This document shows, in pieces, positions 2,769 to 18,826 of a stretch of DNA of 21,539 nt (the first letter of the stretch is position 1; every line of letters starts with the position of its first letter). Below the pieces are notes generated by a model. That model did not search any database, had not been told where the DNA came from, and saw only the letters and a list, made by a program, of their open reading frames with translations. The translations under genes were made by a program, and so were the position numbers. Source of the DNA: a virus; IMG/VR virus record IMGVR_UViG_3300021185_000666, positions 1-21,539 of that record; one strand, written 5' to 3'.

Positions 2769-2769
2769 C

Positions 2770-2997
2770 ATGACAGAATATATCAAAGTAGAAGAACACC
2801 CTAAACTTGTAAGAGATACATATTCTCGTGCAATTATTAATACAGACGTATATGCATACGAAGCTGCAATTACAAGATCAAGAAATGCTAAACAGCAAAA
2901 AGATGATATGAGAGATGCAGTAAGGGATATAAATAACTTAAAGAGTGAGATGCATGAAATTAAGTCCTTGCTTCTAAAACTAGTGGATAAAGAATAA
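2770..2997 (+). CDS. Small coiled-coil protein, conserved in style, function unknown
   Basis: A 75-residue protein that starts one base after the stop of the upstream structural gene (TAACATG), suggesting coupled translation. The frame is open further upstream (to 2629), but that extension lies inside the preceding gene, so the ATG at 2770 is preferred. The N-terminal half (TEYIKVEEHPKLVRD, TYSRAIINTD) is followed from residue ~35 by a charged helix (KQQKDDMRDAVRDINNLKSE, then IKSLLLKLVDK) with heptad-like spacing of I/L/M, which predicts a coiled coil. Its stop overlaps the next start as TAATG. The place between a baseplate-type protein and fibre proteins suggests a small virion or assembly component. 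I do not recognise a characterised homologue. Confidence 0.75.
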   Translation: MTEYIKVEEHPKLVRDTYSRAIINTDVYAYEAAITRSRNAKQQKDDMRDAVRDINNLKSEMHEIKSLLLKLVDKE

Positions 2998-3407
2998 TGG
3001 CAGATAGAAACGCACCTTCATCATTTACTTTAGAAGAGTGGAGAGTAGAGTTTAATGAACTGGCATCAGATGTTGGTGATGTTACCTCTCTTCCTTCTAC
3101 TGTAAATGGACAGAACGTAACAGATGTTGTTGGGGCAGTTGTTCAACTTGAAAGCGCTCTATCTTCTGTAATGTTCCCTACGGTTATTGATTTTGATGAC
3201 TCTTCGGGCGTAGCTTCTGAAAGAATTTTAATGGGTACACATGACGATCTCCAACTGTACCATGATGGAACAAAATCAGTAGTAAGTCACACAGGGACAG
3301 GTGAATTAGAACTTATTTCTAATACAACAACCTTGACATTTCCGAATGTTGGTGGTAAAATAGCTACTGAAGGTTTTGGAATTGCTCTTGCGATTGCACT
3401 TGGTTAA
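2997..3407 (+). CDS. Short fibre-like protein with C-terminal IALAIALG
   Basis: A 136-residue protein sharing one base with the upstream stop (TAATG). The N-terminal ~50 residues (SSFTLEEWRVEFNELASDVG, then VTDVVGAVVQLE) look helical and may anchor to the tail. Residues ~80-110 carry ILMGTHDDLQLYHDGTKS...GTGELELIS, a beta module recurrent in marine phage fibres and also present in the protein at 12031-13161. The last residues are EGFGIALAIALG; the ALAIALG ending recurs in the 10155-10781 product and a close version in the 16101-16304 product. It is followed by a late promoter and then a MANNFKNA gene; the same order of partners occurs at 10155/10796. Likely a small virion fibre or attachment protein; the exact role is unknown. 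Confidence 0.75.
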   Translation: MADRNAPSSFTLEEWRVEFNELASDVGDVTSLPSTVNGQNVTDVVGAVVQLESALSSVMFPTVIDFDDSSGVASERILMGTHDDLQLYHDGTKSVVSHTGTGELELISNTTTLTFPNVGGKIATEGFGIALAIALG

Positions 3408-3411
3408 GACT

Positions 3412-3419
3412 TATAAATA
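3412..3419 (+). promoter_or_regulatory. T4-type late promoter (TATAAATA)
   Basis: An exact TATAAATA lies 5 bases after a stop codon and 25 bases before the ATG at 3444, with AAAGGA (3429-3434) as ribosome-binding site in between. This is the consensus -10 element used by T4 late transcription (gp55/gp33/gp45-dependent polymerase). It probably drives 3444 through 6091. Confidence 0.75.
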
Positions 3420-3443
3420 ATAGAGATTAAAGGAAAAGAATAA

Positions 3444-3788
3444 ATGGCTAATAACTTTAAGAATGCATTTGCAACGAGTGTCAGTACTAATGGTGCTTCA
3501 CCTACAGATGTGTATACAGCAAACAATGGTTCTGCCTGTAACTCCATTCTAATTGAACTTGATATCGCAAACACAGGTGTATCTGCTGTTCAGATTTCTG
3601 TTGTGATTAGAGATAGTAGTGGTAGTGCATCATTTCATCTAGTTAAAAACGCTCCAGTTCCAGTTGGATCTTCTTTGAAGGTTGTTTCTGGACAGAAGAT
3701 TGTTTTGAATGGTAATGATAAAGTACAGGTTTATGCATCGGCAGCTACTGTGGATGTTATCGCATCAGTTCTAGAAGACGTAGCATAA
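3444..3788 (+). CDS. Small beta-rich virion protein (MANNFKNA family), paralogue of 10796-11131
   Basis: A 114-residue protein with ribosome-binding site AAAGGA at 3429-3434. It begins MANNFKNAFATSV and has alternating hydrophobic strands (SILIELDIANTGVSAVQISV, GSSLKVVSGQKIVLNGNDKV) ending VDVIASVLEDVA. The whole length aligns with the 111-residue product at 10796: same start (MAN-FKNA), the A.t...V.i.v..rD.s..a.f.L..n pattern, the P.g..l....GQK-iL..gD.v.V core and a hydrophobic end. The fold looks like a compact beta sandwich. It lies directly upstream of an MSNYIG fibre gene, whereas the paralogue lies directly downstream of one. Probably a fibre-associated or tail-decorating structural protein; this is inferred from context. 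Confidence 0.75.
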   Translation: MANNFKNAFATSVSTNGASPTDVYTANNGSACNSILIELDIANTGVSAVQISVVIRDSSGSASFHLVKNAPVPVGSSLKVVSGQKIVLNGNDKVQVYASAATVDVIASVLEDVA

Positions 3789-3800
3789 GAGGGGTAGATA

Positions 3801-4610
3801 ATGTCTAACTACATCGGCACTCCATTTGTGAATCAAGTATCACCCGCTTTTCAGCAGGAAGATTTTACTGATTCAAATTTTGGAAACGTAACAGTAGGTT
3901 CTACTACACATACAAACTCTACTACCTTGTCACAACAAGTGCCGGGCGGAAACGGAGAAAATATACTCGTTGTAATTAATAACGTAATTCAACAAGCAAC
4001 ATCTGCATATACTATTCAACAGGATGCAAATGGCGAACCAAAAATTTTGAAACTTGCAGAGACCCCTGCTTCTAGTTCTACAATCTATATTGTTCATAGA
4101 GGTATTGGTGGATTCCAAATGAAACCACCTACAGGTTCAGTTGGAGCAGACGAACTTGCTGCAAACTTAAAGTCATTTACAAATGATGTATTTACAGGCA
4201 ACGGTTCAGCTACTGCGTTTACTCTGTCAGAGACACCTCCAAATGCAAACTCAGTTTTAGTATTTGTTGATGGTATCCTACAGAAGTCAAGTACAAACTA
4301 TTCAATAAGTGGTACAACATTAACATTCACATCTGCTCCAGATGCAAGTGCAGAGATTGAGGCAAAACATTTTGGTATTCGTGGAGTGGTTCGTAGAAGT
4401 ACTGATTTTCAATACGATACATTTACTGGAAACGGTTCTGCGACAACATTTAATTTAAGTACAACTGGCGCAACAACTAATAGTGCTTTTGTTTTTTATA
4501 ACGGTATAGCACTTAAACCTACAAGTGACTATTCTATTAGTGGTGTTGTTTTAACAACAACATTCACACCACTTAACGCTTCAGAAATAATGGTGAGGTA
4601 TCAAATCTAA
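3801..4610 (+). CDS. Tail-fibre protein with three NGS-T-F beta repeats (MSNYIG type)
   Basis: 269 residues, starting MSNYIGTPF; RBS AGAGGGG at 3788-3794. The MSNYIG tag is shared with the product at 10155. Three repeats of a ~60-residue beta module follow. The first is divergent (residues ~27-101). The second (131-193) reads FTGNGSATAFTLSETP, LVFVDGILQ, YSISGTTLTFTSAP. The third (208-268) reads FTGNGSATTFNLSTTG, FVFYNGIAL, DYSISG. Copies two and three share near-identical coding sequence at their starts. The linker between copies one and two (GSVGADELAANL) is a short stalk of the type seen in many phage fibres. The stop overlaps the next ATG (TAATG), so this protein and the glycine-rich protein downstream are probably made together. 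Role in tail-fibre assembly or host binding is inferred. Confidence 0.8.
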   Translation: MSNYIGTPFVNQVSPAFQQEDFTDSNFGNVTVGSTTHTNSTTLSQQVPGGNGENILVVINNVIQQATSAYTIQQDANGEPKILKLAETPASSSTIYIVHRGIGGFQMKPPTGSVGADELAANLKSFTNDVFTGNGSATAFTLSETPPNANSVLVFVDGILQKSSTNYSISGTTLTFTSAPDASAEIEAKHFGIRGVVRRSTDFQYDTFTGNGSATTFNLSTTGATTNSAFVFYNGIALKPTSDYSISGVVLTTTFTPLNASEIMVRYQI

Positions 4611-5734
4611 TGCCAAGTAACTCAAAAAACCTAGCAGAACTATTAAATACAGACACTTCAATTGAAGTTGGAGATATTGCAAACGATTCTGTAACGGCAG
4701 CTAAACTTGCTTCTAATGCAGTAACAACTGCAAAGATTGCTGCCGATGCAGTAACAGATGCAAAGGTAGATATCACAGCTGATGCAATATCTGATAAAGC
4801 AAATGCTTCTACAGGATATATACAAATACCAAAGGGAACAACTGCACAACGTCCAGGCAGTCCAGCAGATGGAATGATTAGATATAATTCAACTCTTGAC
4901 CTCTCAGAAGAATATAGAGATGGTCAATGGAGAGCGTTATCTAATGTTATTACCATAAGTGGAGGTACAAAAACAACCTCTGGTGGTTATACTATTCATA
5001 CATTCACATCATCTGGAACTTTCTTGATTGATGGTGGTAATTTAACTGGTGTAGATTATCTAGTTGTCGCTGGTGGCGGCGGCGGTGGTTCTAAAAGAGC
5101 TGGTGGCGGTGGCGGCGGTGGAATGGTCAACGCAACCAACCAAACCATAACAGCAGGAGCTCACACAGTCACAATCGGTGCTGGTGGTGCTGGTGCTACT
5201 AGTGACACTGCTAATGGAGTAGTAGGTGGAAACACTTCTTTTGGATCAGTCCAAACTTGTACTGGTGGTGGTTACGGTGGTGGTGAAGGAAAAACTGGAG
5301 GTTCAGGCGGTTCTGGAGGCGGTGGTTCAGACGGGCAAGGGCCTGGTTCTGGAACTTCTGGTCAAGGTAATGCTGGTGGTACTTCTTTTGGTTCTTCTGG
5401 AGGCGGTGGAGGCGGCGGCAAAGGTGGCGTTGGTGAAGCTGGTGGAACAGATGGAACACAAGAAGGTGGCGATGGCGGCGCCGGTTTAACACTTAATTAT
5501 AGTGGAAGTTCAGTCGCATACGCTGGTGGCGGCGGCGGTGGAAGTCGTGATGGAGCAGCTGGTGGTACTGGTGCTAGTGGCGGTGGTAATGGTGGTGTGG
5601 ATAATTCAAACGTATCCACAGCAGGAGCCGCAAATAGAGGCGGTGGAGGCGGCGGTGGTGGTCGTAACGGCGGTACACCATTTGTTGGTGCTAACGGTGG
5701 TTCTGGTGTCGTTATTATTAGGTATCAAACGTAG
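4610..5734 (+). CDS. Glycine-rich tail-fibre adhesin
   Basis: 374 residues, overlapping the upstream stop by one base. The N-terminal stalk (residues ~1-60) contains IEVGDIANDSVTAAKLASNA and repeated AVT.AKI units. Residues ~65-100 (GYIQIPKGTTAQRPGSPADG, MIRYNS, EEYRDGQWRAL) form the conserved 'P.G.IRYN..t..fE.y..g.W..l' module of fibre ends. From residue ~153 to ~367 the chain is polyglycine-rich, with GGGGGG runs separated by short variable inserts, closing with GGSGVVIIRYQT. This ending is typical of phage glycine-rich domains and recalls the polyglycine sandwich of T-even gp38 adhesins, in which the loops bind the receptor. Likely host-recognition adhesin. Glycine codons here are GGT/GGC-dominated, so the region is locally GC-richer than its surroundings. 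Confidence 0.8.
   Translation: MPSNSKNLAELLNTDTSIEVGDIANDSVTAAKLASNAVTTAKIAADAVTDAKVDITADAISDKANASTGYIQIPKGTTAQRPGSPADGMIRYNSTLDLSEEYRDGQWRALSNVITISGGTKTTSGGYTIHTFTSSGTFLIDGGNLTGVDYLVVAGGGGGGSKRAGGGGGGGMVNATNQTITAGAHTVTIGAGGAGATSDTANGVVGGNTSFGSVQTCTGGGYGGGEGKTGGSGGSGGGGSDGQGPGSGTSGQGNAGGTSFGSSGGGGGGGKGGVGEAGGTDGTQEGGDGGAGLTLNYSGSSVAYAGGGGGGSRDGAAGGTGASGGGNGGVDNSNVSTAGAANRGGGGGGGGRNGGTPFVGANGGSGVVIIRYQT
5066..5730 (+). repeat. Low-complexity polyglycine-coding tract
   Basis: Runs of GGT/GGC codons (for example around 5068-5093, 5101-5121, 5398-5420, 5524-5543 and 5638-5662) encode glycine blocks of the adhesin. Each run is a near-perfect trinucleotide repeat and so a likely site for slippage or recombination between blocks, which would change loop number without breaking the frame. 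Confidence 0.75.
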
Positions 5735-5743
5735 GAGATTATT

Positions 5744-6091
5744 ATGGCACATTTTGCAAAAGTACTTAATGGAATAGTAGAAAATATTATAGTAGCAGAA
5801 CAAGAGTTTATGGATACTTTTATTGATGACTCTCCAGGCGAATGGATTCAAACTTCATATAATACAAAAGAAGGTGTACATTCAGATGGTGGTACTCCTT
5901 TAAGAAAAAACTATGCCATAATTGGTGGTACATATGATTCAACTAGAGATGCATTTATTCCTCAAAAACCATATCCAAGTTGGACTTTAGATGAAGACAA
6001 ATGTATTTACGTTGCACCCAAAGCATATCCAACTGACGGAAAAGATTATGATTGGGACGAGGACAAAACCTCTTGGATTGAAGCAGACTAA
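5744..6091 (+). CDS. Conserved small phage protein (MAHFAKV family), possible fibre partner
   Basis: 115 residues; RBS AGGAGA at 5733-5738 overlaps the stop of the glycine-rich gene. It begins MAHFAKVLNGIVENIIVAEQ and contains GEWIQTSYNT, LRKNYAIIGGTYD, RDAFIPQKPYPSWTLDEDK and Y.WDEDKTSW, ending EAD. This pattern is frequent in T4-like marine phages, usually beside fibre or adhesin genes, where it is annotated as unknown. The protein is acidic and rich in aromatic residues, with no membrane segment or signal. Placement immediately after an adhesin, like the other short acidic-tailed genes in this locus, suggests a fibre-assembly chaperone or capping partner. That role is inference. A CTAAATA late-promoter variant overlaps its stop codon. 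Confidence 0.75.
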   Translation: MAHFAKVLNGIVENIIVAEQEFMDTFIDDSPGEWIQTSYNTKEGVHSDGGTPLRKNYAIIGGTYDSTRDAFIPQKPYPSWTLDEDKCIYVAPKAYPTDGKDYDWDEDKTSWIEAD

Positions 6092-6094
6092 ATA
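6088..6094 (+). promoter_or_regulatory. Possible late promoter variant (CTAAATA) overlapping a stop codon
   Basis: CTAAATA spans the TAA stop of the 5744 gene and lies 29 bases upstream of the ATG at 6124. The surrounding 15 bases (6083-6097) are identical to 10115-10129, where the same motif overlaps another stop upstream of a fibre gene. The repeat of motif and position supports a promoter; the match to TATAAATA is imperfect. Confidence 0.45.
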
Positions 6095-6123
6095 GTATTA
6101 TAAAAGATATGGGAAATAATTAA

Positions 6124-7194
6124 ATGCCATTTATAGGAAAACAACCAGAAGTAGGTGCATACTCTAAGTTAGACGCTATTACTGCGTCTGCTACTGCAAC
6201 GTATAATCTAACTTTAGATAGTGGTGCATACTATCCAACAAGTGCAAATCATCTATTGGTTTCTCTGAATGGTGTTATGCAGGCTCCACAAGATTCATTC
6301 ACAGTAAGTGGTTCGACTATCGTATTCGACTCTGCTCTAACAAGTTCTGATAACATCGACTTTATCATGGCACTTGGTGACGTTCTAGATATTGGAACTC
6401 CAAGTGATGGTACGGTAACAAGTTCTAAACTTGCTGGTGCGTTAACTACTCCAAGCAATCTTACAGTTGGTGGTGTGCTAGATGCAACCACAGCTATATT
6501 TGACAGGGCTAGTACAGACGGCGTTATTGTTAACCTACAAAAAAATAATGGAAGCATAGGTAGTATTGATGTTGATAATGGAGATAATCTTACAGTACAA
6601 GGTAAGTCAGATCATTCAGGCCTTCAATTTGGAACTAATGCAATATTCCCTCATAAAAATAGTGCGAACATAGACGCTACAATAGACTTGGGCGAAAGCA
6701 CGCTTCGTTGGAAAGACATTTATCTATCAGGCGGTGTGAACTTCAGCGCAAATGCAAACGCTACTGGCATGACATCAGAAACGCTAGATGACTACGAAGA
6801 AGGCACTTGGACTCCAACTGTTAATGGTTTAAGTGGTGCTGCTAGTGGATATAGTGCTCAAATTGGTCACTACACAAAGATAGGAAATATTGTCGTTGCT
6901 TATTTTAGATTCACTTTAACAAATAAGGGAAATATTTCTGGTAACTATGCACTAATTCAAGGTCTACCATTTAATCATTCTGGTTCTGATGGTGGTTCTG
7001 GTATGGTTAATAGATATACAAATCTAGTAAATGCTGTAAGTAGTTTAGGTATAGAACTAGGTGGGTCAACACCTACGGCTGCTTGGTTAACTAAACAAAG
7101 TGGTACAAGTGGAACAAGTGATACATATGTAACTACTGCTGATATTGCGAACAATACATTTATGCAAGGCAGTTTGATATATAGAACGTCATAA
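6124..7194 (+). CDS. Tail-fibre protein (MPFIGK type with DDYEEGTW domain)
   Basis: 356 residues beginning MPFIGKQPEVGAYSKLDAI; the MPFIGK tag is shared with the product at 11143. Residues ~25-85 hold one diverged NGS-T-F type beta module (LLVSLNGVMQAPQDSFTVSG). A short stalk (DGTVTSSKLAGAL) follows, then a coiled or beta region with SANIDATIDLGESTLRWKDI and YLSGGVNFSANAN. DDYEEGTW is at residues 222-229, introducing a C-terminal domain with GHYTKIGNIVVAYFRFTLTN and LIQGLPFNHSG. The protein at 11143 shares the same sequence of motifs (INFSA, DDYEEGTW, YTKIG, GLPF) in a shorter form. This C-terminal domain is common at fibre tips of marine phages and is the likely receptor-facing part. The gene stands alone between two promoter-like sequences. 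Confidence 0.8.
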   Translation: MPFIGKQPEVGAYSKLDAITASATATYNLTLDSGAYYPTSANHLLVSLNGVMQAPQDSFTVSGSTIVFDSALTSSDNIDFIMALGDVLDIGTPSDGTVTSSKLAGALTTPSNLTVGGVLDATTAIFDRASTDGVIVNLQKNNGSIGSIDVDNGDNLTVQGKSDHSGLQFGTNAIFPHKNSANIDATIDLGESTLRWKDIYLSGGVNFSANANATGMTSETLDDYEEGTWTPTVNGLSGAASGYSAQIGHYTKIGNIVVAYFRFTLTNKGNISGNYALIQGLPFNHSGSDGGSGMVNRYTNLVNAVSSLGIELGGSTPTAAWLTKQSGTSGTSDTYVTTADIANNTFMQGSLIYRTS

Positions 7195-7276: not shown

Positions 7277-7543
7277 ATGGCTATTACGAAAAGAACGGAA
7301 GAAGATAAAATTGAAGTGATTGGAGCATTCAAGCACATTCAAGTGAGAACAGCTACGGTGATTGAAGAGGACGGTGTTGAACTGTCTCGTTCATTCGCAA
7401 GACATGTTGTTGCACCAAACTCAGACTCATCTAAGGAAAGTGCAGATGTAAAAGCGATGGTTGCACAGTTTCATACTGATTCAGTAAAAACTGCATATGC
7501 GGCACATCTTGCTGCTAACACACCAGCAGATGACGAAGAGTAA
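7277..7543 (+). CDS. Small conserved phage protein, unknown function
   Basis: 88 residues with a strong RBS (AAGGAGA, 7264-7270) and a late promoter directly upstream. It begins MAITKRTEEDKIEVIGAFKH, followed by IQVRTATVIEEDGVELSRSF and ARHVVAPNSD, and then a helical half (VKAMVAQFHTDSVKTAYAAH) ending ADDEE. The N-terminal half predicts beta strands of the kind 'k.e.i..fk.iqvR.atviedG.Els.s..R', a pattern I associate with small proteins next to phage fibre genes. No membrane segment or enzymatic motif is visible. It opens the cassette that carries the duplicated fibre genes, so a shared accessory role in fibre assembly is possible but unproven. Confidence 0.7.
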   Translation: MAITKRTEEDKIEVIGAFKHIQVRTATVIEEDGVELSRSFARHVVAPNSDSSKESADVKAMVAQFHTDSVKTAYAAHLAANTPADDEE

Positions 7544-7569: not shown

Positions 7570-8664
7570 ATGGCGTTGATTAAATTAAATACAAGAAGTA
7601 TTCCAGACAATGCGGTGACGCCTGCGAAGGTGTCACAGAATCTTGGGCGTAGAAATATGATAATTAATGGCGCCATGCAAATAGCACAATACGGCACCTC
7701 CGTAACAGGTATTACTAGTGGCAACAATTTGACAGCAGATAGGTTTAGTTTTTCTACAGGAAGTAATGGTGGTACATATACATTATCTACATCTACAACT
7801 GTTCCTTCTGGTGAAGGGTTCAAAAGAAGTCTAAAACTTGATTGTACTACTGCCGGAAATTATTCTACTGCTGGTACTGCCACTATGTTAAGATGTTCGC
7901 CATTTGAAATTCAAGATTGTGCAAGACTAGCATACGGAACTTCTGGTGCAAAGAAACTAACAGTGTCATTTTGGACTCGTGCTAGTTATACAGGAACATT
8001 TACAGCATTGCTTGTAACACATGATTCTGCACAAAGAAATATTATAAAGACATTTACTATCTCTTCTGCTAACACATGGCAAAAAGTTGTTCTAACTTAT
8101 GATGGAGATACTGGAAGTACATTCACTGGGGCTGACATTAATCTGGGATTAAGCTTAGATATTTGGATGGGTGGTGGTTCTAGTTACACTGGTGGTTCTC
8201 AAACAGATGGTGTCTGGAGAGCTCGATCAACACATAACACTTCTGTCTTACAAGGTAATGGTACATTGTTTGGTACAAACACTTCCCATGACTTCTATAT
8301 AACAGGATTACAAGTTGAGGTTGGCGATGCAGCTACAGATTTCGAACACCGATCATACGCAGAAGAACTAGCGCTTTGCCAACGCTACTATGAAACAGAT
8401 GGCATGGCTGGTGGGGATAATTATAGAGTTGCATTACCTAAAGTTCAAACTAGTGATTCTTACTATTTTCATATTCCTTATAAACATTACAAAAGGACAA
8501 AAGCATCTGTAACTATAACCCAAGCGTATTCAGACAATTTAGTGCTTAATGCTCACAGTGCTTCTTCTGGTGTAGGTGGGTTTGGAACAGCAACTGCTAC
8601 TGGTGGGTCAGCAGATAATAGAGCTCTATTTGAATTTTTCTGGAAAGCGGATGCAGAGTTATAG
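7570..8664 (+). CDS. Tail-fibre protein, copy 1 of tandem duplicated cassette
   Basis: 364 residues beginning MALIKLNTRSIPDNAVTPAK. The motif GRRNMIINGAMQIAQYG (residues ~26-42) is followed by TADRFSF and a jelly-roll-like beta domain (TVSFWTRASYTGTFTALLVT, TWQKVVLTYDGDTG, DIWMGGG). This is the carbohydrate-binding-like fold typical of fibres with 'INGAM.IAQ' starts. GLQVEVGD...FEHRSYAEELALCQRYYE (residues ~245-272) is the conserved hinge, after which a variable tip of ~90 residues ends KADAEL. The product at 8861 shares the INGAM start, the hinge and the AEL end but has a different tip. Likely a host-binding fibre. The RBS of the small partner gene starts two bases after the stop. Confidence 0.85.
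   Translation: MALIKLNTRSIPDNAVTPAKVSQNLGRRNMIINGAMQIAQYGTSVTGITSGNNLTADRFSFSTGSNGGTYTLSTSTTVPSGEGFKRSLKLDCTTAGNYSTAGTATMLRCSPFEIQDCARLAYGTSGAKKLTVSFWTRASYTGTFTALLVTHDSAQRNIIKTFTISSANTWQKVVLTYDGDTGSTFTGADINLGLSLDIWMGGGSSYTGGSQTDGVWRARSTHNTSVLQGNGTLFGTNTSHDFYITGLQVEVGDAATDFEHRSYAEELALCQRYYETDGMAGGDNYRVALPKVQTSDSYYFHIPYKHYKRTKASVTITQAYSDNLVLNAHSASSGVGGFGTATATGGSADNRALFEFFWKADAEL
8336..8357 (+). repeat. 22-bp direct repeat at the fibre hinge (copy 1)
   Basis: These 22 bases are identical to 9600-9621. They encode the DFEHRS hinge shared by the two tandem fibre genes. A second identity of 14 bases (8315-8328 and 9579-9592) has the same 1264-base offset. The repeat marks the junction between conserved body and variable tip. 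Confidence 0.85.
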
Positions 8665-8675
8665 TAGGAGATGAC

Positions 8676-8858
8676 ATGAATATTACAGAAGTTAAATATC
8701 AATTTGATGAAACTAGCAAAAAAAATGTTGGTTATATCGCAACTATTGGTGATGAAGTTTGGTATGTTCCATTAGATGATGGAAACAGACACTACATTGA
8801 AATTCAAAAACAAGTTGCAGATGGTGACTTAACAATTAAAGATGCTGATGAGGAATAA
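8676..8858 (+). CDS. Small acidic partner of fibre gene, copy 1
   Basis: 60 residues; RBS AGGAG at 8666-8670. The protein reads MNITEVKYQFDETSKKN..., then GDEVWYVPLDDGNRHYIEIQ and KQVADGDLTIKDADEE. It aligns along its full length with the 57-residue product at 9950: MNIT..KY start, a central W.VPLD.DN..Y.EI stretch, QVA.GDLTI and an acidic end. Both copies lie directly behind their fibre gene, so the pair was duplicated as a unit. The size, acidity and position suggest a fibre-assembly chaperone or a capping subunit of the fibre; no experimental homologue is known to me. Confidence 0.8.
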   Translation: MNITEVKYQFDETSKKNVGYIATIGDEVWYVPLDDGNRHYIEIQKQVADGDLTIKDADEE

Positions 8859-8860
8859 AA

Positions 8861-9946
8861 ATGGCACTCAGTAAAGTAAATCCAAATCTAGTTCAGAACT
8901 TTGGACGTAGAAGATTAAACATTAATGGTGCTATGCAAGTGGCACAAAGGACAACTTCTGCGACAATATCAGATGGTGCTAATGAAGGATACAGAACATT
9001 AGATAGATGGAGAGCTTTATTTTCGTCTAGTGCTGGTGGTGTTGCTACTATGTCACAAGTTAACGGTGGCCCAAACTTTAAGTTTGCAAAATCAATGAAG
9101 ATAGACGTTACCACAGCAGATACATCATTGGATGCAAATCATGCTATAACCCTACAATATAGATTTGAAGACCAAGATATTGCAAACTCAGGTTGGGAAT
9201 ATAGAGATCCTAATTCTAAACTAAACGTATCTTTTTGGGCTAAATCAACAAAAGCAGGAACATACTGTGTATTTCTATATGCAGTAAGTAATACACAGTA
9301 CAATATTGTTAAAGAATATACTCTTGCTGCTGACACATGGACATATGTTAGTTTATCATTTAAGGGTAGTAATAATCAGGTAGCTTTTGATGGTACTACT
9401 GCTGAAGGATTACAGGTAGGATGGACACTAGCAGCAGGATCAAATAGATCTGAGAATGTCGTAGAGGGTGAATGGATTCTAAGAACCTCTGGAGCAGGAC
9501 AAGGAAGATATGCAACATCAAATCAAGTAAACTTTTTTGATAGTACATCCAATATCTATCATCTTACAGGGGTTCAAATTGAGGTTGGCGATACATCTTC
9601 AGATTTCGAACACCGATCATATGGTGAAGAACTATCGCTTTGTCAAAGATACTATCAATTAAATATTAGTAATACTGGATATACAAACACATCAACCAAT
9701 GCTAGACTAGGACTTGCTGGTAACTCAGCAATGAGAGCCGCACCATCTCTAAGTATAGTTGCGGCTACTGGAGTAGTTGAAGATTTTGGTACAAATAATA
9801 GAAATCTCGTTAGTTTAGGTGGCCTATCTGCCGGTGCCGGCGGTGGTTTTCTAGGAGGGGCGGTTGATGCGACTATTACATCGTCTACGAGTTCCAAACC
9901 CCACATCTTATTTCCAGGCGCAATTGCTATGTCAGCGGAGTTATAG
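8861..9946 (+). CDS. Tail-fibre protein, copy 2 of tandem duplicated cassette
   Basis: 361 residues, starting two bases after the previous stop and probably translationally coupled. It begins MALSKVNPNLVQNFGRRRLN followed by INGAMQVAQR, TLDRWRALF, and the same beta-sandwich order as copy 1 (LNVSFWAKSTKAGTYCVFLY, TWTYVSLSFKGS, GWTLAAG). The hinge GVQIEVGD...FEHRSYGEELSLCQRYY lies at residues ~240-264. The remaining ~95 residues form a tip unlike that of copy 1, ending AMSAEL. The stop is followed three bases later by the start of its small partner. The retained body and hinge with divergent tip suggest tip replacement by recombination or strong diversifying selection. Confidence 0.85.
   Translation: MALSKVNPNLVQNFGRRRLNINGAMQVAQRTTSATISDGANEGYRTLDRWRALFSSSAGGVATMSQVNGGPNFKFAKSMKIDVTTADTSLDANHAITLQYRFEDQDIANSGWEYRDPNSKLNVSFWAKSTKAGTYCVFLYAVSNTQYNIVKEYTLAADTWTYVSLSFKGSNNQVAFDGTTAEGLQVGWTLAAGSNRSENVVEGEWILRTSGAGQGRYATSNQVNFFDSTSNIYHLTGVQIEVGDTSSDFEHRSYGEELSLCQRYYQLNISNTGYTNTSTNARLGLAGNSAMRAAPSLSIVAATGVVEDFGTNNRNLVSLGGLSAGAGGGFLGGAVDATITSSTSSKPHILFPGAIAMSAEL
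9600..9621 (+). repeat. 22-bp direct repeat at the fibre hinge (copy 2)
   Basis: Identical to 8336-8357, in the same reading frame and at the same place in the second fibre gene. Recombination between the copies would delete the first partner gene and fuse the two fibre genes into a single intact one. Confidence 0.85.
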
Positions 9947-9949
9947 AAA

Positions 9950-10123
9950 ATGAATATTACAAATGCAAAATACTCTAAAGATTTGGATGGAAATAATTCT
10001 TGTGTAAAATGTACTATAGGTGGTGTTGATTGGTTAGTGCCTTTAGACCCTGATAACTCAGATTATGCAGAAATTCTAAGACAAGTTGCAGCAGGCGACT
10101 TAACCATTGCAGAGGCAGACTAA
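9950..10123 (+). CDS. Small acidic partner of fibre gene, copy 2 (57 aa)
   Basis: A short gene of 58 codons including the stop. It starts three bases after the stop of the second fibre gene. The protein begins MNITNAKYSKDLDGNNSCVK, continues CTIGGVDWLVPLDPDN, then SDYAEILRQVAAGDLTIAEAD. Its reality is supported by full-length similarity to the product at 8676: MNIT..KY, VPLD..N..Y.EI, QVA.GDLTI and an acidic end. Unlike copy 1 it has two cysteines in the N-terminal half. A CTAAATA promoter-like motif overlaps its stop. Function is inferred from pairing with the fibre gene, as for copy 1. Confidence 0.8.
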   Translation: MNITNAKYSKDLDGNNSCVKCTIGGVDWLVPLDPDNSDYAEILRQVAAGDLTIAEAD

Positions 10124-10154: not shown

Positions 10155-10781
10155 ATGAGTAACTATATCGGCGCAGAACCATCTTATGGTGTGTTCGACA
10201 GACAAATTTTGGCAGGGAACGGTACGACAACACAGTTCAACTTGGACTTTTTTGTTGCACAACCTTCTTCTTTGCTTGTTTCAATTGATGGTGTTATTCA
10301 AGAACCAGAGTATTCTTATACTACTGGAATAACATCTGGACAAGCGCTCATCAATTTCTCAGAAGCACCAGATAATGGCGCTAGAATCTTTCTTATCTAT
10401 ATGGGTAGACAGGTTCTTACTGCACAAGCTTCTGCGGCGTTATCGCAAACACACTTTGACGAATTTAATGGTAACGGTTCAACGACTGCCTTTACATTAA
10501 CAAACACTCCAGTATCAGGTGCATCTGAAAACTTTATGGTATATGTGGACAATGTATATCAAAGAAATGGTTCTGGTCTTGCATTCCAAGTATCTGGTTC
10601 AACAATAACATTTACCTCTGCACCACCATCTGGAACAAAGAATATTCAAGTTTACCAGTTAAATGGGGTAAACACACTAAATACTATTGCTGATAATACA
10701 GTCTCAGTTGCGAAAGTGCAACAGGGAGTATTTGACCAAGCAGAAGATGACGCAACAGCATTGGCAATTGCTTTAGGATAA
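10155..10781 (+). CDS. Tail-fibre protein with two NGS-T-F beta repeats and C-terminal ALAIALG
   Basis: 208 residues beginning MSNYIGAEPSYGVFDRQILA, sharing the MSNYIG tag with the product at 3801. Two copies of the beta module follow. Copy one, residues ~17-83, contains GNGTTTQFNL, LVSIDGVIQEPEYSY and INFSEAPDN. Copy two, residues ~104-168, contains FNGNGSTTAFTLTNTP, MVYVDNVYQR and VSGSTITFTSAPPSG. A short stalk (IADNTVSVAKVQQGVFDQA) leads to the end, DDATALAIALG. The ALAIALG terminus is identical to that of the 2997-3407 product. It therefore combines the start of one locus member with the end of another. The next gene is a MANTFKNA protein, as after the 2997 gene. Structural fibre role is likely. 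Confidence 0.8.
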   Translation: MSNYIGAEPSYGVFDRQILAGNGTTTQFNLDFFVAQPSSLLVSIDGVIQEPEYSYTTGITSGQALINFSEAPDNGARIFLIYMGRQVLTAQASAALSQTHFDEFNGNGSTTAFTLTNTPVSGASENFMVYVDNVYQRNGSGLAFQVSGSTITFTSAPPSGTKNIQVYQLNGVNTLNTIADNTVSVAKVQQGVFDQAEDDATALAIALG

Positions 10782-10795
10782 TATAGGAAAAAAAC

Positions 10796-11131
10796 ATGGC
10801 GAACACATTTAAGAATGCAGCAACAGCAAACGTATCGAATAGTTCATATGCAACTTTGTATACTTGTCCTGCTAATACACAGACTGTTGTTCTTGGACTT
10901 GCAGTTGCAAACAAGACAACCTCTGCTGTAACAGTACAGGTTCAGTTTACAGATACTTCTGCTTCTAGTGCAACATTTCAACTTTTAGAGAATATTAGTA
11001 TCCCAGCGAATACTACATTAGAAACTCTCGCTGGACAAAAATATATTTTAGAGGCTGGAGATATCCTCAAAGTCAAGGCAGGCACTGGTTCTGCTCTTGA
11101 TGTAGTTATGGGTCTCATGGAAAAATCATAA
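10796..11131 (+). CDS. Small beta-rich virion protein (MANTFKNA family), paralogue of 3444-3788
   Basis: 111 residues beginning MANTFKNAATANVSNSSYAT. The core has strands TVVLGLAVANKTTSAVTVQV and FQLLENISIPANTTLETLAG, then QKYILEAGDILKVKAG and the end LDVVMGLMEKS. It aligns over its whole length with the 3444 product, with the GQK.iL..gD.l.V stretch best conserved. Its start is 14 bases after the upstream stop, preceded by TAGGAAAA. The protein is a compact beta-sandwich candidate without signal or membrane segments. Both family members lie next to MSNYIG fibre genes, so a fibre-associated structural role is likely. Confidence 0.75.
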   Translation: MANTFKNAATANVSNSSYATLYTCPANTQTVVLGLAVANKTTSAVTVQVQFTDTSASSATFQLLENISIPANTTLETLAGQKYILEAGDILKVKAGTGSALDVVMGLMEKS

Positions 11132-11142
11132 GGGGATAATTG

Positions 11143-12015
11143 ATGCCATTTATAGGTAAAACGCCAGCACAGGGATTTGTAAACTCAGTAACCAAGGATG
11201 ATTTCACTCCTAATGGTTCTACTACTGCGTTTACAATGAGTAAAGCGCCCGCTACAGTAAACGAAATAGAAGTCTATGTAGGTAATGTTCGCCAAGAACC
11301 TACATCTGCTTATTCTGTTTCGGGAACAACTCTTACAATGACAGAAGCGCCTGCAACTAATGTTAACTTCTATGTAATGCATATTGGTGGGACTACTCAG
11401 AGTAGTACTGTTGTAGGAGATGGTACGGTAAGAAGTGCAAAGATTGTCAGTGGTGCAGTGACATCATCCAAACTAGATACTAACATTGCAATTTCTGGAA
11501 CTACAACATCAACTGGACTTATTACTGCAACTGCTGGTATTTCTGTTCCAAGTGGACAAGGTATTAACTTTAGTGCCACTGGTGATGGTAGTGGTACAAT
11601 GGCAAGTGAACTCTTTGACGATTATGAAGAAGGCACATGGGTGCCAGAATTTAGAGGATCTAGTGGTTCAGCTGGTAGTGCAAGCACTTCGGTGAGTATG
11701 GCTCAGTATACAAAGATTGGTAGGTTAGTTACTATCCAGTGTGATTTAAGGTGGTCTACAATAGGTAGTTGGGGGGGTAATTTAGAATTACACGGTTTAC
11801 CATTTACAGTTGGGGTTAAAGGACAAGGAACGCCTGGATTGTTGAAAAGAATTGAAATTACTCAGAAAATGATTACAGCTGTAGCATACCCTAGTGGTAC
11901 GGTGATAAAATTCTTTGATATAAGCAGTGATCTCAGTGTAAAGGCGCAAACCTCTGTGACTAGGTTTAACGATGCTTTGAATGAATTTACAATGACCATG
12001 TCATACTCTGTTTAA
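11143..12015 (+). CDS. Tail-fibre protein (MPFIGK type with DDYEEGTW domain), shorter paralogue
   Basis: 290 residues from the ATG at 11143. An in-frame TTG one codon earlier (11140) is possible but unnecessary: MPFIGK is the start shared with the product at 6124, and AAGGGG (11130-11135) is well placed. Residues ~21-80 hold one NGS-T-F module (FTPNGSTTAFTMSKAP, EVYVGNVRQEPTSAYSVSG). A stalk follows with DGTVRSAKIVSGAVTSSKL. INFSATGDG precedes DDYEEGTW at residues 159-166. The C-terminal domain has AQYTKIGRLVTIQCDLRW and LELHGLPF, like the 6124 product, but diverges afterwards. Likely another host-range fibre. Confidence 0.8.
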   Translation: MPFIGKTPAQGFVNSVTKDDFTPNGSTTAFTMSKAPATVNEIEVYVGNVRQEPTSAYSVSGTTLTMTEAPATNVNFYVMHIGGTTQSSTVVGDGTVRSAKIVSGAVTSSKLDTNIAISGTTTSTGLITATAGISVPSGQGINFSATGDGSGTMASELFDDYEEGTWVPEFRGSSGSAGSASTSVSMAQYTKIGRLVTIQCDLRWSTIGSWGGNLELHGLPFTVGVKGQGTPGLLKRIEITQKMITAVAYPSGTVIKFFDISSDLSVKAQTSVTRFNDALNEFTMTMSYSV

Positions 12016-13525: not shown

Positions 13526-13581
13526 GAACAATTTCAAAAATAAAACTCTATTTATTACCATAACATCTAAGACACAATCCT

Positions 13582-13589
13582 TATAAATA
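13582..13589 (+). promoter_or_regulatory. T4-type late promoter (TATAAATA)
   Basis: An exact TATAAATA lies 23 bases before the ATG at 13613, with AAGGAG (13597-13602) between them. It sits at the end of an 87-base non-coding gap that is AT-rich and shows no clear hairpin. It probably drives 13613 onward, possibly through gp13-gp15. Confidence 0.75.
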
Positions 13590-13612
13590 GAACTAGAAGG
13601 AGACTGTGTTCG

Positions 13613-13948
13613 ATGGCAACAATATCAAATTTATTTATAGATCAAGACTCTGACTTTACCACCACGGTAACAGTCAATGACTCTAATGGGACTGCACTTG
13701 ATTTAACAAATTATACTGCACTTGGTATGGTACGCAAGACGTATGAATCATCAAGCGCAACTACATTTGCATCCTCGTTTGTTTCGCCAAGAACTACAGG
13801 ACAAATCACAATCTCACTGACAGACACGCAAACCGCAGCTCTTGACTACGGAAGGTATGTTTATGACTTGGTCATAACAGATGCCTCTGGTAGCAAAACA
13901 AGGGTTGTTGAAGGTATTGCAACTGTAAGTCCAAGCGTATCAAGGTAG
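13613..13948 (+). CDS. Small beta-sandwich virion protein
   Basis: 111 residues beginning MATISNLFIDQDSDFTTTVT, followed by DSNGTALDLTNYTALGMVRK, TGQITISLTDTQTAALDYGR and YVYDLVITDASG, ending VEGIATVSPSVSR. The sequence 'i..Gs.f...vtv.d.nG.a.dLt.y.a...irk' followed by 'g.i.l.Lt..qTaal..GrYvYDl.i' and 'v.G...v.P.vtR' resembles the N-terminal fibre- or baseplate-attachment domains found across marine and other phages. It is an Ig-like beta domain. It is preceded by an exact late promoter and a strong RBS (AAGGAG, 13597-13602), and followed 4 bases later by a collagen-containing gene. A virion structural or fibre-attachment role is likely. Confidence 0.75.
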   Translation: MATISNLFIDQDSDFTTTVTVNDSNGTALDLTNYTALGMVRKTYESSSATTFASSFVSPRTTGQITISLTDTQTAALDYGRYVYDLVITDASGSKTRVVEGIATVSPSVSR

Positions 13949-13952
13949 AACT

Positions 13953-14240
13953 ATGTCGATTACAGCAACAGTAAATACATCAAGAACGGTAGTTGGTTCG
14001 GTTTCTCAAGGAAATCAACCACAAGTAACTCGTGTAACAGTGCCTGGGCCGAAAGGTGACGCTGGTGCTACGGGCTCTTCTGCAAACAACATTTCCCAAG
14101 CGGCAGATGTTGATATCTCAACATTCCCATTACAAGATGGTTCTCTATTACAATATAGAACTGCAACTGGTAAGTGGACTGCTAGAAACGAACTTGACAC
14201 TACAAGTGGAAACCTCACATTGAGCGGTGGAAGTTTTTAA
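13953..14240 (+). CDS. Short collagen-repeat fibre protein ending GGSF
   Basis: 95 residues. After a beta N-terminus (MSITATVNTSRTVVGSVSQG, QVTRVTVP) comes a short collagen-like run GPKGDAGATGSS (residues 32-43, four Gly-X-Y triplets). Then ADVDISTFPLQDGSLLQYRT and GKWTARNELDTT form the 'dGs.L.y....gkW.a...' module of fibre ends. It ends LTLSGGSF; the 607-residue fibre protein downstream ends SIDGGTF, a very similar C-terminus. The collagen stretch is much shorter than in typical collagen-bearing phage fibres, so it may only form a triple-helical linker. Likely a small trimeric fibre or connector. Confidence 0.75.
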   Translation: MSITATVNTSRTVVGSVSQGNQPQVTRVTVPGPKGDAGATGSSANNISQAADVDISTFPLQDGSLLQYRTATGKWTARNELDTTSGNLTLSGGSF

Positions 14241-14247
14241 TTAAATA
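14241..14247 (+). promoter_or_regulatory. Possible weak late promoter (TTAAATA)
   Basis: TTAAATA follows the TAA stop at 14238-14240 and lies 13 bases before the ATG at 14261, with AGGAAAAA as a weak RBS. It differs from TATAAATA at one position in the matching seven bases. AT-richness makes a chance match plausible. Confidence 0.25.
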
Positions 14248-14260
14248 GGAAAAAAAGAAA

Positions 14261-16084
14261 ATGGCATTAACATTACAAATCAAACGATCTACTGGTAGTA
14301 CCGCTCCTGGCACCCTCTCTGATGGTGAATTGGCGTATACTCACGGTAATGAAAAATTTTACATTGGTGATGGTTCTACCGTAAAGGTAATTGGTGGTAA
14401 AAGTTTTAACGATAAGATAGACCATGCAGATGGTACACTAACTGCAAGTTCAGCAATTCTAGTTGATACAAACAAAGCAATTGATGACCTTAATGTTGGT
14501 AATCACGCAACAACTGGTGGTTCTCTTCAACTAAAAGAAGGAACGAACAACGGCACACACCATGTTCAACTTAAATCTCCAAATGCTCTTGCAGCAAATG
14601 TTGCATTTACTTTGCCTGCAGCAGACGGAAATGCAGATGAGTTTCTAAAAACAAACGGTTCTGGTGCATTATCATTTGGTGCAATCTCAAGTTCATTCAC
14701 ACTTGCAGCTGACAGTGGTTCAAATGACACATTTAGTACTAGTGAGACACTAACATTCACTGGTGGTACAGGTATCGACACAACTGTATCAAATAATGAA
14801 ATCACATATGCAATCGACTCTACTGTTTCTACACTTGCTGGTACACAGACACTTACAAATAAAACTATAAATGCTTCTAATAACACCATTACTAACATTG
14901 CTAATGGTGCATTAGCAAACTCAACTGTTTCTTACGGTGGTGTATCTCTTGCACTTGGTGCTACTGATGCAACCCCAGCATTTGACTTGGCGGATGCAAC
15001 AAACTATCCAACATCATCTCTTGCTGGAACAATTACAAATGCACAACTTGCTGGTTCAATCGCAAATGCAAAACTTGCTAACGATGGAATTACAATCGGT
15101 AGTGCTGATACATCACTTGGTGATACAATCACTGCATTGGCAGGAATGACTGCAATTGCTGTTGACAACCTTACACTTGATGCAAACACAATTTCAACAA
15201 CTAACTCAAATGGTGACATGATACTTGCTCCTAACGGAACAGGCTCAGTAACAGTTCCTTCTGGATATACTGCAAGAGCAGGATTTGGTTCAGACTCACT
15301 TGTAAATAAATCATATGTTGATAGTGTTGCAAACGGACTTGACGTTAAGGCATCTGTAAGAGTTGCTACAACTGCAAACCTTGCCGCAACATACAACAAT
15401 GGCGCTGGTACATTGACTGCATCCTCTAACGGTGCAATCTCAGTAGACGGTGTTACTCTTGTAGTGAATGATAGAGTTCTTGTAAAAGACCAATCAACTG
15501 CTGCACAGAACGGTTTCTATAAAGTAACGACTGTTGGTTCTGGTTCTGCTGCATTTGTTCTAACAAGAACTCCAGATGCAGACGCTGCTTCTGAATTGAC
15601 TGCTGGTGCATTTACATTTACTGAAGAAGGTACTGCAAACGCAGACAACGGTTATGTTCTAAGTACAAACGGTGCAATTTCACTTGGTACTACAGGAATT
15701 ACATTTGAACAATTCTCAGGTGCTGGACAGATTTCTGCTGGTGCTGGTTTAACTAAAACTGGTAACACAATTGATGTTGTGGGAACAGCAGACAAGATTA
15801 CTGTGGCTGCAAACGCAATCACTATTGCAAGTGGTTATGTTGGACAATCATCTATTACAACATTGGGAACAATCGCAACTGGTGTATGGAATGGTACAGC
15901 AATTGGTGTTGCACATGGTGGTACTGGACTAACTAGTGTTGCAAAAGGTTCTGTTCTAGTAGCAAACTCTGCAAACACATTGTCGGCACTTGACGGTGGC
16001 GGTAGTGATGATGGAATTCTACTTTATACAGCATCTTCTGATACTCTAGCATTTGGGACTTCTATAGACGGCGGCACATTTTAA
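14261..16084 (+). CDS. Long modular tail-fibre protein (607 aa)
   Basis: The largest complete gene here. The N-terminus MALTLQIKRSTGSTAPGTLS followed by DGELAYTHGNEKFYIGDGS (residues ~20-39) is the 'KRS...P..L..GElA.n....klyiGdG' start common to fibre and tropism-determinant proteins. Residues ~80-150 carry LQLKEGTNNGTHHVQLKSPN and FTLPAADGNADEFLKTNGSG, another fibre module. The middle (residues ~190-340) has repeats such as GTQTLTNKTINASNNTITN and short stalks (ITNAQLAGSIANAKLANDG). From residue ~349, YVDSVANGLDVKASVRVATT opens a ~140-residue domain (VNDRVLVKDQSTAAQNGFYK, EEGTANADNGYVL) frequent in phage fibres. The end has GTIATGVWNGTAIGVAHGGT and closes SIDGGTF. Likely a long tail fibre or host-recognition fibre. 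Confidence 0.85.
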   Translation: MALTLQIKRSTGSTAPGTLSDGELAYTHGNEKFYIGDGSTVKVIGGKSFNDKIDHADGTLTASSAILVDTNKAIDDLNVGNHATTGGSLQLKEGTNNGTHHVQLKSPNALAANVAFTLPAADGNADEFLKTNGSGALSFGAISSSFTLAADSGSNDTFSTSETLTFTGGTGIDTTVSNNEITYAIDSTVSTLAGTQTLTNKTINASNNTITNIANGALANSTVSYGGVSLALGATDATPAFDLADATNYPTSSLAGTITNAQLAGSIANAKLANDGITIGSADTSLGDTITALAGMTAIAVDNLTLDANTISTTNSNGDMILAPNGTGSVTVPSGYTARAGFGSDSLVNKSYVDSVANGLDVKASVRVATTANLAATYNNGAGTLTASSNGAISVDGVTLVVNDRVLVKDQSTAAQNGFYKVTTVGSGSAAFVLTRTPDADAASELTAGAFTFTEEGTANADNGYVLSTNGAISLGTTGITFEQFSGAGQISAGAGLTKTGNTIDVVGTADKITVAANAITIASGYVGQSSITTLGTIATGVWNGTAIGVAHGGTGLTSVAKGSVLVANSANTLSALDGGGSDDGILLYTASSDTLAFGTSIDGGTF

Positions 16085-16100
16085 TTAATAAGAGAAAATT

Positions 16101-16304
16101 ATGGCAACAATTGCAATTAAACCAAAACGCTCTGAGACTGCAACATCTACTCCATCTGCTAGTGATTTAGAAGCTGGGGAGATTGCTATTAACTCTGCCG
16201 ACCAAAAAATATATACAAAGAAGGCGGATGGAACAGTTGTTGAGGTAGCAAATAAGGGTGCAGATGAGGGATTCGCAATCGCTCTTAGCATTGCGTTAGG
16301 ATAA
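16101..16304 (+). CDS. Small fibre-attachment-like protein ending IALSIALG
   Basis: 67 residues: MATIAIKPKRSETATSTPSA, then SDLEAGEIAINSADQKIYTK, KADGTVVEVANKGADEGFAI, ALSIALG. The core 'KRS......P...dL..GEiAiN..D.kiYtk..dGtvv.v' (residues ~8-49) is the short N-terminal module of many phage fibres, here as a free-standing protein. Its C-terminal EGFAIALSIALG closely matches the EGFGIALAIALG end of the 2997 product. It is followed four bases later by gp13, so it sits between the fibre locus and the neck genes. It may cap or anchor a fibre; this is inferred from the module content. Confidence 0.75.
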   Translation: MATIAIKPKRSETATSTPSASDLEAGEIAINSADQKIYTKKADGTVVEVANKGADEGFAIALSIALG

Positions 16305-16308
16305 AGAT

Positions 16309-17124
16309 ATGGCAATACCAAATACAAGGGCGACATTTAAGGAATACTGTCTTAGATCACTAGGGAAACCAGTGATTGAAATTAATGTTGACCCAGATCA
16401 AGTAGAAGACAGAATTGATGAAGCTCTACAATACTTCTCGCAATATCACTACGATGGTATTGAAAGAGTATATCTGAAATATCAGATTACTCAAGCAGAT
16501 ATTGATAGAGCTCGTTCTGATACATCTTTACCTTCAGTAACGGATGTCGATTCATCTACAACAGCAGTATGGAAAGAACAGAAAAATTATATTCCTGTTC
16601 CAAGCACAGTTATGTCTGTGGTAAAAGTATTCCCTTTCATTGATAAGGGTGGGATGAATATGTTTGACGTTAAGTATCAGTTAAGACTGAATGACTTATA
16701 CGACTTTAGTTCAACCTCAGTCATTCATTACGAAATGACTATGCAACATCTAGATTTTCTAGACCATATCTTGACAGGTGATACACAGATACGTCACAAC
16801 CAACATCAAAACAGGTTGTATTTGGACTTAGATTGGCAACTTGATGTTGCTGATGGTGATTACATCATTATTGAATGTTATCGTAAATTAGATCCAGCAA
16901 CATTTGTTGATGTATGGGATGATATCTTTTTGAAGAAGTACGCAACACAATTAATTAAACTTCAGTGGGGTGCAAACCTTTCTAAGTTTCAAGGAATTCA
17001 GATGTTAGGTGGTGTCGCACTAAATGGCGAACAGATTTATACTCAAGCACAAGAAGAAATCAATAAACTTGAAGAACAAATTCAACTTGCTTATGAGTTG
17101 CCACCAATGCATATGATAGGGTAA
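16309..17124 (+). CDS. gp13: Neck protein gp13 (T4-like)
   Basis: 271 residues, somewhat shorter than T4 gp13. The start MAIPNTRATFKEYCLRSLGK is followed by PVIEINVDPDQVEDRIDEAL and QYFSQYHYDGIERVYLKYQI, the hallmark N-terminus of T4-like gp13. Later segments include VVKVFPFIDKGGMNMFDVKY, LRLNDLYDF, HQNRLYLDLDW and a C-terminal helix rich in E/Q (AQEEINKLEEQIQLAYELPP). In T4, gp13 and gp14 form the neck that closes the DNA-filled head at the portal and joins it to the tail. The next two genes are gp14 and gp15 in the T4 order, 3 and 2 bases apart, which supports one transcription and assembly unit. Start chosen at the first ATG, 4 bases after the previous stop. Confidence 0.95.
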   Translation: MAIPNTRATFKEYCLRSLGKPVIEINVDPDQVEDRIDEALQYFSQYHYDGIERVYLKYQITQADIDRARSDTSLPSVTDVDSSTTAVWKEQKNYIPVPSTVMSVVKVFPFIDKGGMNMFDVKYQLRLNDLYDFSSTSVIHYEMTMQHLDFLDHILTGDTQIRHNQHQNRLYLDLDWQLDVADGDYIIIECYRKLDPATFVDVWDDIFLKKYATQLIKLQWGANLSKFQGIQMLGGVALNGEQIYTQAQEEINKLEEQIQLAYELPPMHMIG

Positions 17125-17127
17125 GTT

Positions 17128-17976: not shown

Positions 17977-17978
17977 TT

Positions 17979-18800: not shown

Positions 18801-18803
18801 ATA
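18796..18803 (+). promoter_or_regulatory. T4-type late promoter (AATAAATA) overlapping the gp15 stop
   Basis: AATAAATA matches the NATAAATA late core and overlaps the TAA at 18798-18800. It lies 23 bases before the ATG at 18827, with TTAGGAAAAA between. It is placed to start the inserted adhesin block and possibly gp16. Confidence 0.6.
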
Positions 18804-18826
18804 ATACAAAGAATTAGGAAAAAGAT

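Follow-up and report, generated by a model that had tools for sequence, protein, structure and literature searches.

In phage Mu, the duplicate C-termini of the fibre, each with its own chaperone, are carried by an invertible cassette (S-U / S'-U'). The two Mu fibre versions are expressed one at a time (PMC11821841). A different type of exchange is described for the distal fibres of T-even phages in the account given in PMC3797505, according to which recombination between conserved motifs swaps the adhesin specificity (Tetart, Desplats and Krisch 1998); the same account also refers to Trojet et al. 2011 for the gp37/gp38 distal adhesin exchange. In Pam3, the fibre-binding N-domain of gp25 comprises residues 1-55 (PMC9608196).

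Two fibre and partner cassettes in a host recognition cluster

The 21,539-base virus contig analysed here (the window) comes from a Melnitz-like T4-type phage (Kyanoviridae). Its gp13 neck gene (16309-17124) showed 87% to the OM43 methylophage Melnitz and 72% to the pelagiphage HTVC008M, and it was followed in T4-type order by the head-tail adaptor Ad2, head closure Hc2, sheath stabiliser and terS genes. Two cassettes, each consisting of a fibre gene and a small partner gene, were located between the neck genes and a VrlC-like gene (3-2768, matching HTVC008M VrlC), in the region known in pelagimyophages as the 'host recognition cluster' (PMC7029224). The first-pass annotation had described a same-order tandem of two such pairs, and this was confirmed, as cassettes 7570-8858 and 8861-10123 formed a direct tandem of four intact ORFs on one strand with spacers of 11, 2 and 3 nt. 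The features are as follows.

7570-8664, plus strand: fibre 1 (364 aa; anchor, body, hinge and tip ending in AEL); ORF, phrog_4492 and L009 matches
7645-7680, plus strand: conserved GRRN..INGAMQ block of fibre 1 (left junction block); alignment, recurrent identity boundary in relatives
8305-8391, plus strand: hinge of fibre 1 (GLQVEVGDAATDFEHRSYAEELALCQRYY); profile match, L009 identity stops here
8392-8661, plus strand: tip of fibre 1 (90 residues); no relative found with it as a query against viral_contigs
8676-8858, plus strand: partner 1 (60 aa; stand-alone, putative tip chaperone or cap); ORF, partner alignment
8799-8912, plus strand: junction segment, the end of partner 1 and the first 17 codons of fibre 2; 91% nt in L009
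8861-9946, plus strand: fibre 2 (361 aa; anchor, CBM4-like body, hinge and tip); ORF, AlphaFold body
8903-8938, plus strand: GRRRLNINGAMQ block of fibre 2 (left junction block); alignment, recurrent identity boundary
9569-9655, plus strand: hinge of fibre 2 (GVQIEVGDTSSDFEHRSYGEELSLCQRYY); profile match, helix at residues 254-262 in the model
9656-9943, plus strand: tip of fibre 2 (96 residues); pLDDT 46-60 in mid-tip
9950-10123, plus strand: partner 2 (57 aa; predicted beta-beta-beta-alpha); ORF, pLDDT 95
9575-10123, plus strand: mobile unit of hinge, tip 2 and partner 2; 90% nt in L087/L088

Both fibres matched the tail fibre profile phrog_4492 (E 1.8e-47 for fibre 1 and 6.7e-41 for fibre 2), and partner 1 showed 52% to a Melnitz protein annotated as 'tail assembly chaperone'. 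A BLASTP comparison of the two fibres gave 36% over 287 residues (E 1e-41) with the alignment stopping just past the hinge, and the partners were 52% alike over 58 residues (E 4e-16). At the DNA level, a hinge repeat of 114 nt (79% identity) was detected between the fibres, including a 22-nt exact match (8336/9600), the longest common to both, as well as a partner repeat of 107 nt (70% identity). The annotation had also claimed that the last 90-95 residues or so of the fibres differ, and indeed no BLASTP alignment was obtained between the post-hinge tips, but they share the signature PVxMRxxPT plus C-terminal DAEL, which was found across 159 tips and makes them members of one hypervariable domain family and not unrelated sequences. 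The proposed tandem duplication with divergent tips held as far as the homology of fibres and partners is concerned; the bodies, however, were only 36% alike as well, which excludes a recent duplication and leaves a pair that is either old or independently acquired. Similarity confined to short common motifs, with separate closest relatives for each whole cassette, had been named as the pattern that would speak against duplication. The similarity extended far beyond short motifs, and the closest relatives varied by module and not by whole cassette.

The neighbourhood of the cassettes contained further fibre-like and repeated genes. The adjacent fibre at 6124-7194 was also mosaic, its first 103 residues being 97% to L009 3647-4972 and the remainder unrelated; the end of that L009 fibre resembled, by eye, an S74-type intramolecular chaperone. 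Just upstream of the cassettes, a small phrog_6228 protein (7277-7543) showed 86% to a gene of the Melnitz isolate MZ577098 (L005 7131-7388). This gene was not found in L009, where fibre 1 adjoins the 6124 homologue directly. A strongly glycine-rich fibre-like protein (phrog_2295) was encoded at 4610-5734, and a glycine-rich protein (L088 3764-4570) separated the two cassettes of L088. Paralogous sets were identified at 3444-3788 / 10796-11131 and 3801-4610 / 10155-10781 / 11140-12015, and the presence of several such sets suggests that the cluster grew by repeated gene acquisition or duplication. The T4-like late promoter core TATAAATA occurred five times in the window against 1.7 expected, including positions 2928, 3412, 13582 and 21277. 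None was found inside the cassettes, consistent with a single long late operon, and a promoter/terminator scan gave signals at about chance level.

Module structure and breakpoints of the fibre genes

The contig L009 (IMGVR_UViG_3300017729_000052) represented a near-identical phage, with 97% nt over window positions 2478-6433. Fibre 1 was 94% identical to it in nucleotides from the start to the hinge (up to window position 8396) and unrelated beyond; in 90-nt bins, identity was 87-100% through the bin at 8290 and 29-36% afterwards. Partner 1 of L009 differed from that of the window (47% aa), whereas the last 60 nt of partner 1 and the first 17 codons of fibre 2 were kept at 91% nt, beyond which fibre 2 differed again. 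As the joints were kept and the inserts differ, both slots have changed their contents within a conserved two-slot architecture. The relationship was the reverse for the second cassette. Its hinge, tip 2 and partner 2 were present at 90% nt over 552 nt in L087 and L088, two contigs from two samples, behind an unrelated body and at a site near terminase genes, outside this cluster; the contig of L088 also carried L106, 98% to the window over 13542-18906. With body 1 nearest to L009 and tip 2 plus partner 2 nearest to L087, module exchange is indicated and not a simple tandem duplication.

Comparison of dN/dS by region, which the annotation had proposed, gave, from small counts, values of 0.25 in body 1 and 0.16 in partner 2, indicating purifying selection on both, and of about 1.1 in tip 2 against L087. 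Within window positions 9641-10120, dS against L087 was 0.07 in tip 2 and 0.36 in partner 2 (small counts), a contrast hinting at separate exchange times inside one module.

The same structure was found in a survey of 161 modules extracted from 266 loci, most of them IMG/VR contigs, in which 12,090 module pairs were compared. The fibre consists of an N-terminal anchor, a CBM4-like body, a helical hinge and a tip of about 100 residues ending in AEL, and is followed by a partner of 57-60 residues. The hinge motif FEHRSY.EEL.LCQRYY was the best conserved block of the fibre, the C-terminus was AEL or SEL in 149 of the 161, and a partner gene lay directly behind the hinge fibre in 161 of 162 cases overall and in all 81 among loci found by the partner alone. 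Another hinge fibre directly followed the module in 11 of the 129 modules with enough downstream sequence, so the window is not alone in having direct tandem copies.

Bodies at least 80% identical were found in 14 pairs, of which only three were alike throughout; in the remaining 11, with bodies 82-99% identical and some up to 98% in DNA, the tips were at background level (21-36%, the median over all module pairs being 26%). Conversely, nine pairs had tips at least 76% identical, and in six of these the bodies were unrelated (28-45%), with the tips at 76-99% and the partner at 82-98% in all six. Where tips differed, the partner could stay at 93% (L062/L197) or drop to 38%. The partner thus appears to be exchanged along with the tip often, not always, and its co-transfer may be mere linkage.

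DNA identity broke at the end of the hinge, within about 20 nt. Among 166 identity boundaries inside fibre genes, none fell in the tip interior (21% of the length) and five in the body interior (44%), of which three preceded the hinge by 37-59 nt; all others coincided with or adjoined the INGAM block or the hinge, or fell within 60 nt of either end of the fibre gene. As they stem from pairs that overlap, these boundaries are not independent, and alignments tend to end at conserved blocks, but the pattern was unchanged when counted by distinct module.

Since most loci are IMG/VR contigs and the hinge is the best conserved block, assembly chimeras formed at the hinge could in principle create apparent mosaics. 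The same junction was present in S-N03 (MT162466) and MA01 (PP110484), two cultured Synechococcus phages propagated on strain MW02: their fibre sequences were 92% identical over 2,167 nt up to the hinge CQRYYQK, the tips had 17% aa identity, and 96% nt identity resumed from ADAEL-stop. No partner was detected downstream of these swapped tips. The occurrence of a tip-only swap in isolates means that the mosaics are not an assembly artefact. The arrangement of tip 2 with partner 2 in both L087 and L088, and an exact match of at most 22 nt between fibre 1 and fibre 2, also weigh against chimeras, which we regard as a very improbable source of the pattern. In two further cyanophage isolates, RB11-B and RN05-S, a fibre with a partner of 53-54 aa adjoined a second fibre, and these small proteins scored 36-39 bits against the partner profile.

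The isolates also bear on plain tandem duplication followed by fast tip divergence under positive selection, without module exchange. Such a course would agree with the same gene order, the homologous bodies and partners and the dN/dS of tip 2, but not with nearly identical bodies abutting background-level tips, tips 88-99% identical on unrelated bodies, or the closely similar flanks around the S-N03/MA01 tips. As a rule covering the tips in general it is refuted; it could survive only for the origin of the two slots, and it is improbable as a full account. The tip replacement downstream of the hinge for which the annotation had proposed a search, in contrast, was borne out, with a conserved frame and exchangeable tips seen in L009, L087 and S-N03/MA01.

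The number of cassettes per genome varied as well. A related 36-kb contig, G004 (L269, L270), contained six fibre and partner cassettes, some before and some after the neck genes, and the five fully readable ones all had mutually different tips and bodies. A single cassette was present in Melnitz-2, and none in MZ577098, an isolate nearly identical to it elsewhere. Both the number of cassettes and the identity of the tips are therefore labile. All Melnitz variants have an identical host range on the published panel (PMC9004378), so cassette variation need not change the host. Comparison of two Melnitz isolates (L004 6323-8863 and L005 6500-8357), elsewhere 99.8-100% identical, revealed that the fibre and partner cassette was replaced by another small fibre and a tail-fibre-assembly-like gene; the odd isolate is named Melnitz-3 in GenBank and Melnitz-4 in the paper.

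Predicted structures and a probable route of exchange

Structures were predicted from alignments from which rows of phage records were left out. The AlphaFold model of fibre 2 (66 sequences, mean pLDDT 83.8) had a beta-sandwich body (model residues 16-243) closest to CBM4-2 (2y64_A; Z 14.4, rmsd 2.6, 161 aligned), a hinge formed by a helix at 254-262 and a beta-rich tip of low confidence at about 300-350. In BFVD, cyanophage tail fibres matched the fold with TM (query) 0.72-0.79. Given its CBM4-like fold, the body itself may bind carbohydrate, and receptor binding need not be left to the tip alone. PDB sequence searches with fibre, partner and tip profiles gave nothing meaningful, and a literature search for the hinge motif returned no phage paper.

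The model of partner 2 (57 residues, pLDDT 95) showed three strands and one helix at 37-47. The best fold match, to a chemokine-like fold (Z 5.3, Foldseek E 0.2), was rejected, as it reflects a common beta-beta-beta-alpha topology with no functional meaning. No TFA structure was among the matches listed, which excludes nothing. In Pfam and PHROG, no convincing match to the partner was found, and a TFA-type annotation occurred in Melnitz only. Among 84,980 prokaryote genomes, the partner was detected in four MAG contigs only, which makes it essentially a virus family. By synteny and analogy, the partner probably helps to fold or cap the tip, as a chaperone or cap. Its size and position would fit a counterpart of the N-domain with which TFA chaperones such as Pam3 gp25 bind the fibre; the C-terminal helical trimerisation domain of TFA chaperones was not present in the 57-residue model.

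The explanation we favour starts from the observed module structure and breakpoints, the sharing of tip plus partner across bodies and genomic sites and the tip-only exchange in cultured phages. Each of the two cassettes would fill one slot for a modular adhesin in the host recognition cluster. The N-terminal anchor would dock the adhesin to the tail, and the tip would act as the receptor binder, with both adhesins presumably co-expressed. The GRRN..INGAM block, the hinge and the AEL-stop/partner region would supply conserved DNA as homology arms, at which recombination between co-infecting phages would replace the tip, the tip plus partner, or the body, with the joints staying in frame. Homologous recombination is the most likely route on the available sequences, and the explanation as a whole is considered well supported and probable.

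Carriage of two receptor specificities on one virion at once, raised by the annotation, is plausible in view of the intact cassettes, their close spacing, the purifying selection on body 1 and partner 2 and the six-cassette relative. The annotation's alternative, a reserve tip, would have one cassette in use and the other silent until switched, by Mu/P1-like inversion or in-genome gene conversion. A duplicate fibre with a small partner does recall the Mu S/U organisation, and the 22-nt exact match within the 114-nt hinge repeat could serve in-genome exchange. Both copies are, however, direct and complete with their own starts, and the window contig (an incomplete genome), its relatives and the two complete Melnitz genomes yielded no serine or tyrosine recombinase (PF00239/PF00589), resolvase, invertase or integrase, so that a reserve copy is not favoured and seems unlikely. 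Mutation of the tips by a diversity-generating retroelement, which a hypervariable C-terminal domain in a receptor-binding-like protein might bring to mind, is more remote still, as no reverse transcriptase (PF00078) was detected in the same contig, relatives and Melnitz genomes, and the tip variants differ in length and over the whole tip.

Comparison with described adhesin modules

It is well established that abundant marine phages carry hypervariable host-recognition islands, which largely lack annotation. With the domain grammar of anchor, CBM4-like body, hinge, tip and partner, receptor-binding tips can be recognised in metagenomic data from their joints, a family of small proteins that had no annotation is assigned a place, and it becomes testable whether phages of SAR11, OM43 and picocyanobacteria shift hosts through tip exchange. 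A broader, tentative proposal, about which we are rather more doubtful than confident, is that the hinge and AEL/partner blocks might be standard connectors for a community-wide pool of receptor-binding tips on which unrelated marine phages draw (methylophages, HMO-2011-type phages and cyanophages). In this proposal each tip would have its matching chaperone or cap, a stand-alone protein of one domain, and a single phage would display up to six different tips simultaneously.

The Melnitz methylophage tail region (PMC9004378) has the same gene neighbourhood as the window, and the Melnitz-2 partner is annotated as 'tail assembly chaperone'; Melnitz-2 has one cassette and MZ577098 lacks the family altogether, whereas the window has two. 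Unlike Mu S-U / S'-U', the window cassettes show no inversion or invertase, and both copies are complete and direct. In Alteromonas phages V22 (gp26/gp27) and A5 (gp8/gp9), a fibre and its cognate downstream gene likewise form a module common to distant marine phages (PMC7289586, PMC10579305). The chaperones of these phages, however, have 176-239 aa and mostly belong to DUF4376, while the window partners have 57-60 aa and no Pfam/PHROG family; in the window family, moreover, the exchange is resolved within the gene, at the hinge. In the Pam3 gp24/gp25 pair (TFA family; PMC9608196, PDB 7YPX), the N-terminal fibre-binding beta domain of gp25, about 55 residues long, is partner-sized, but gp25 has an extra C-terminal helical trimerisation domain that the partner lacks, the likeness being one of size and position only.

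The closest parallel is the T-even gp37/gp38 system, as far as it is described in PMC3797505. There, too, the phages are of the T4 type, recombination at conserved motifs swaps the distal part that determines specificity and a small downstream gene takes part. A sharp identity switch at a conserved motif, in both directions, which marks T-even-type exchange, was found in the window family. The motifs are different (hinge FEHRSY.EEL.LCQRYY, INGAM and AEL blocks), the fibre is a CBM4-like protein of about 360 aa, the partner has 57-60 aa, and there are several cassettes per genome. Judged from the sequences compared, the tip exchange described here is a marine variant of the adhesin exchange known from T4-type phages.
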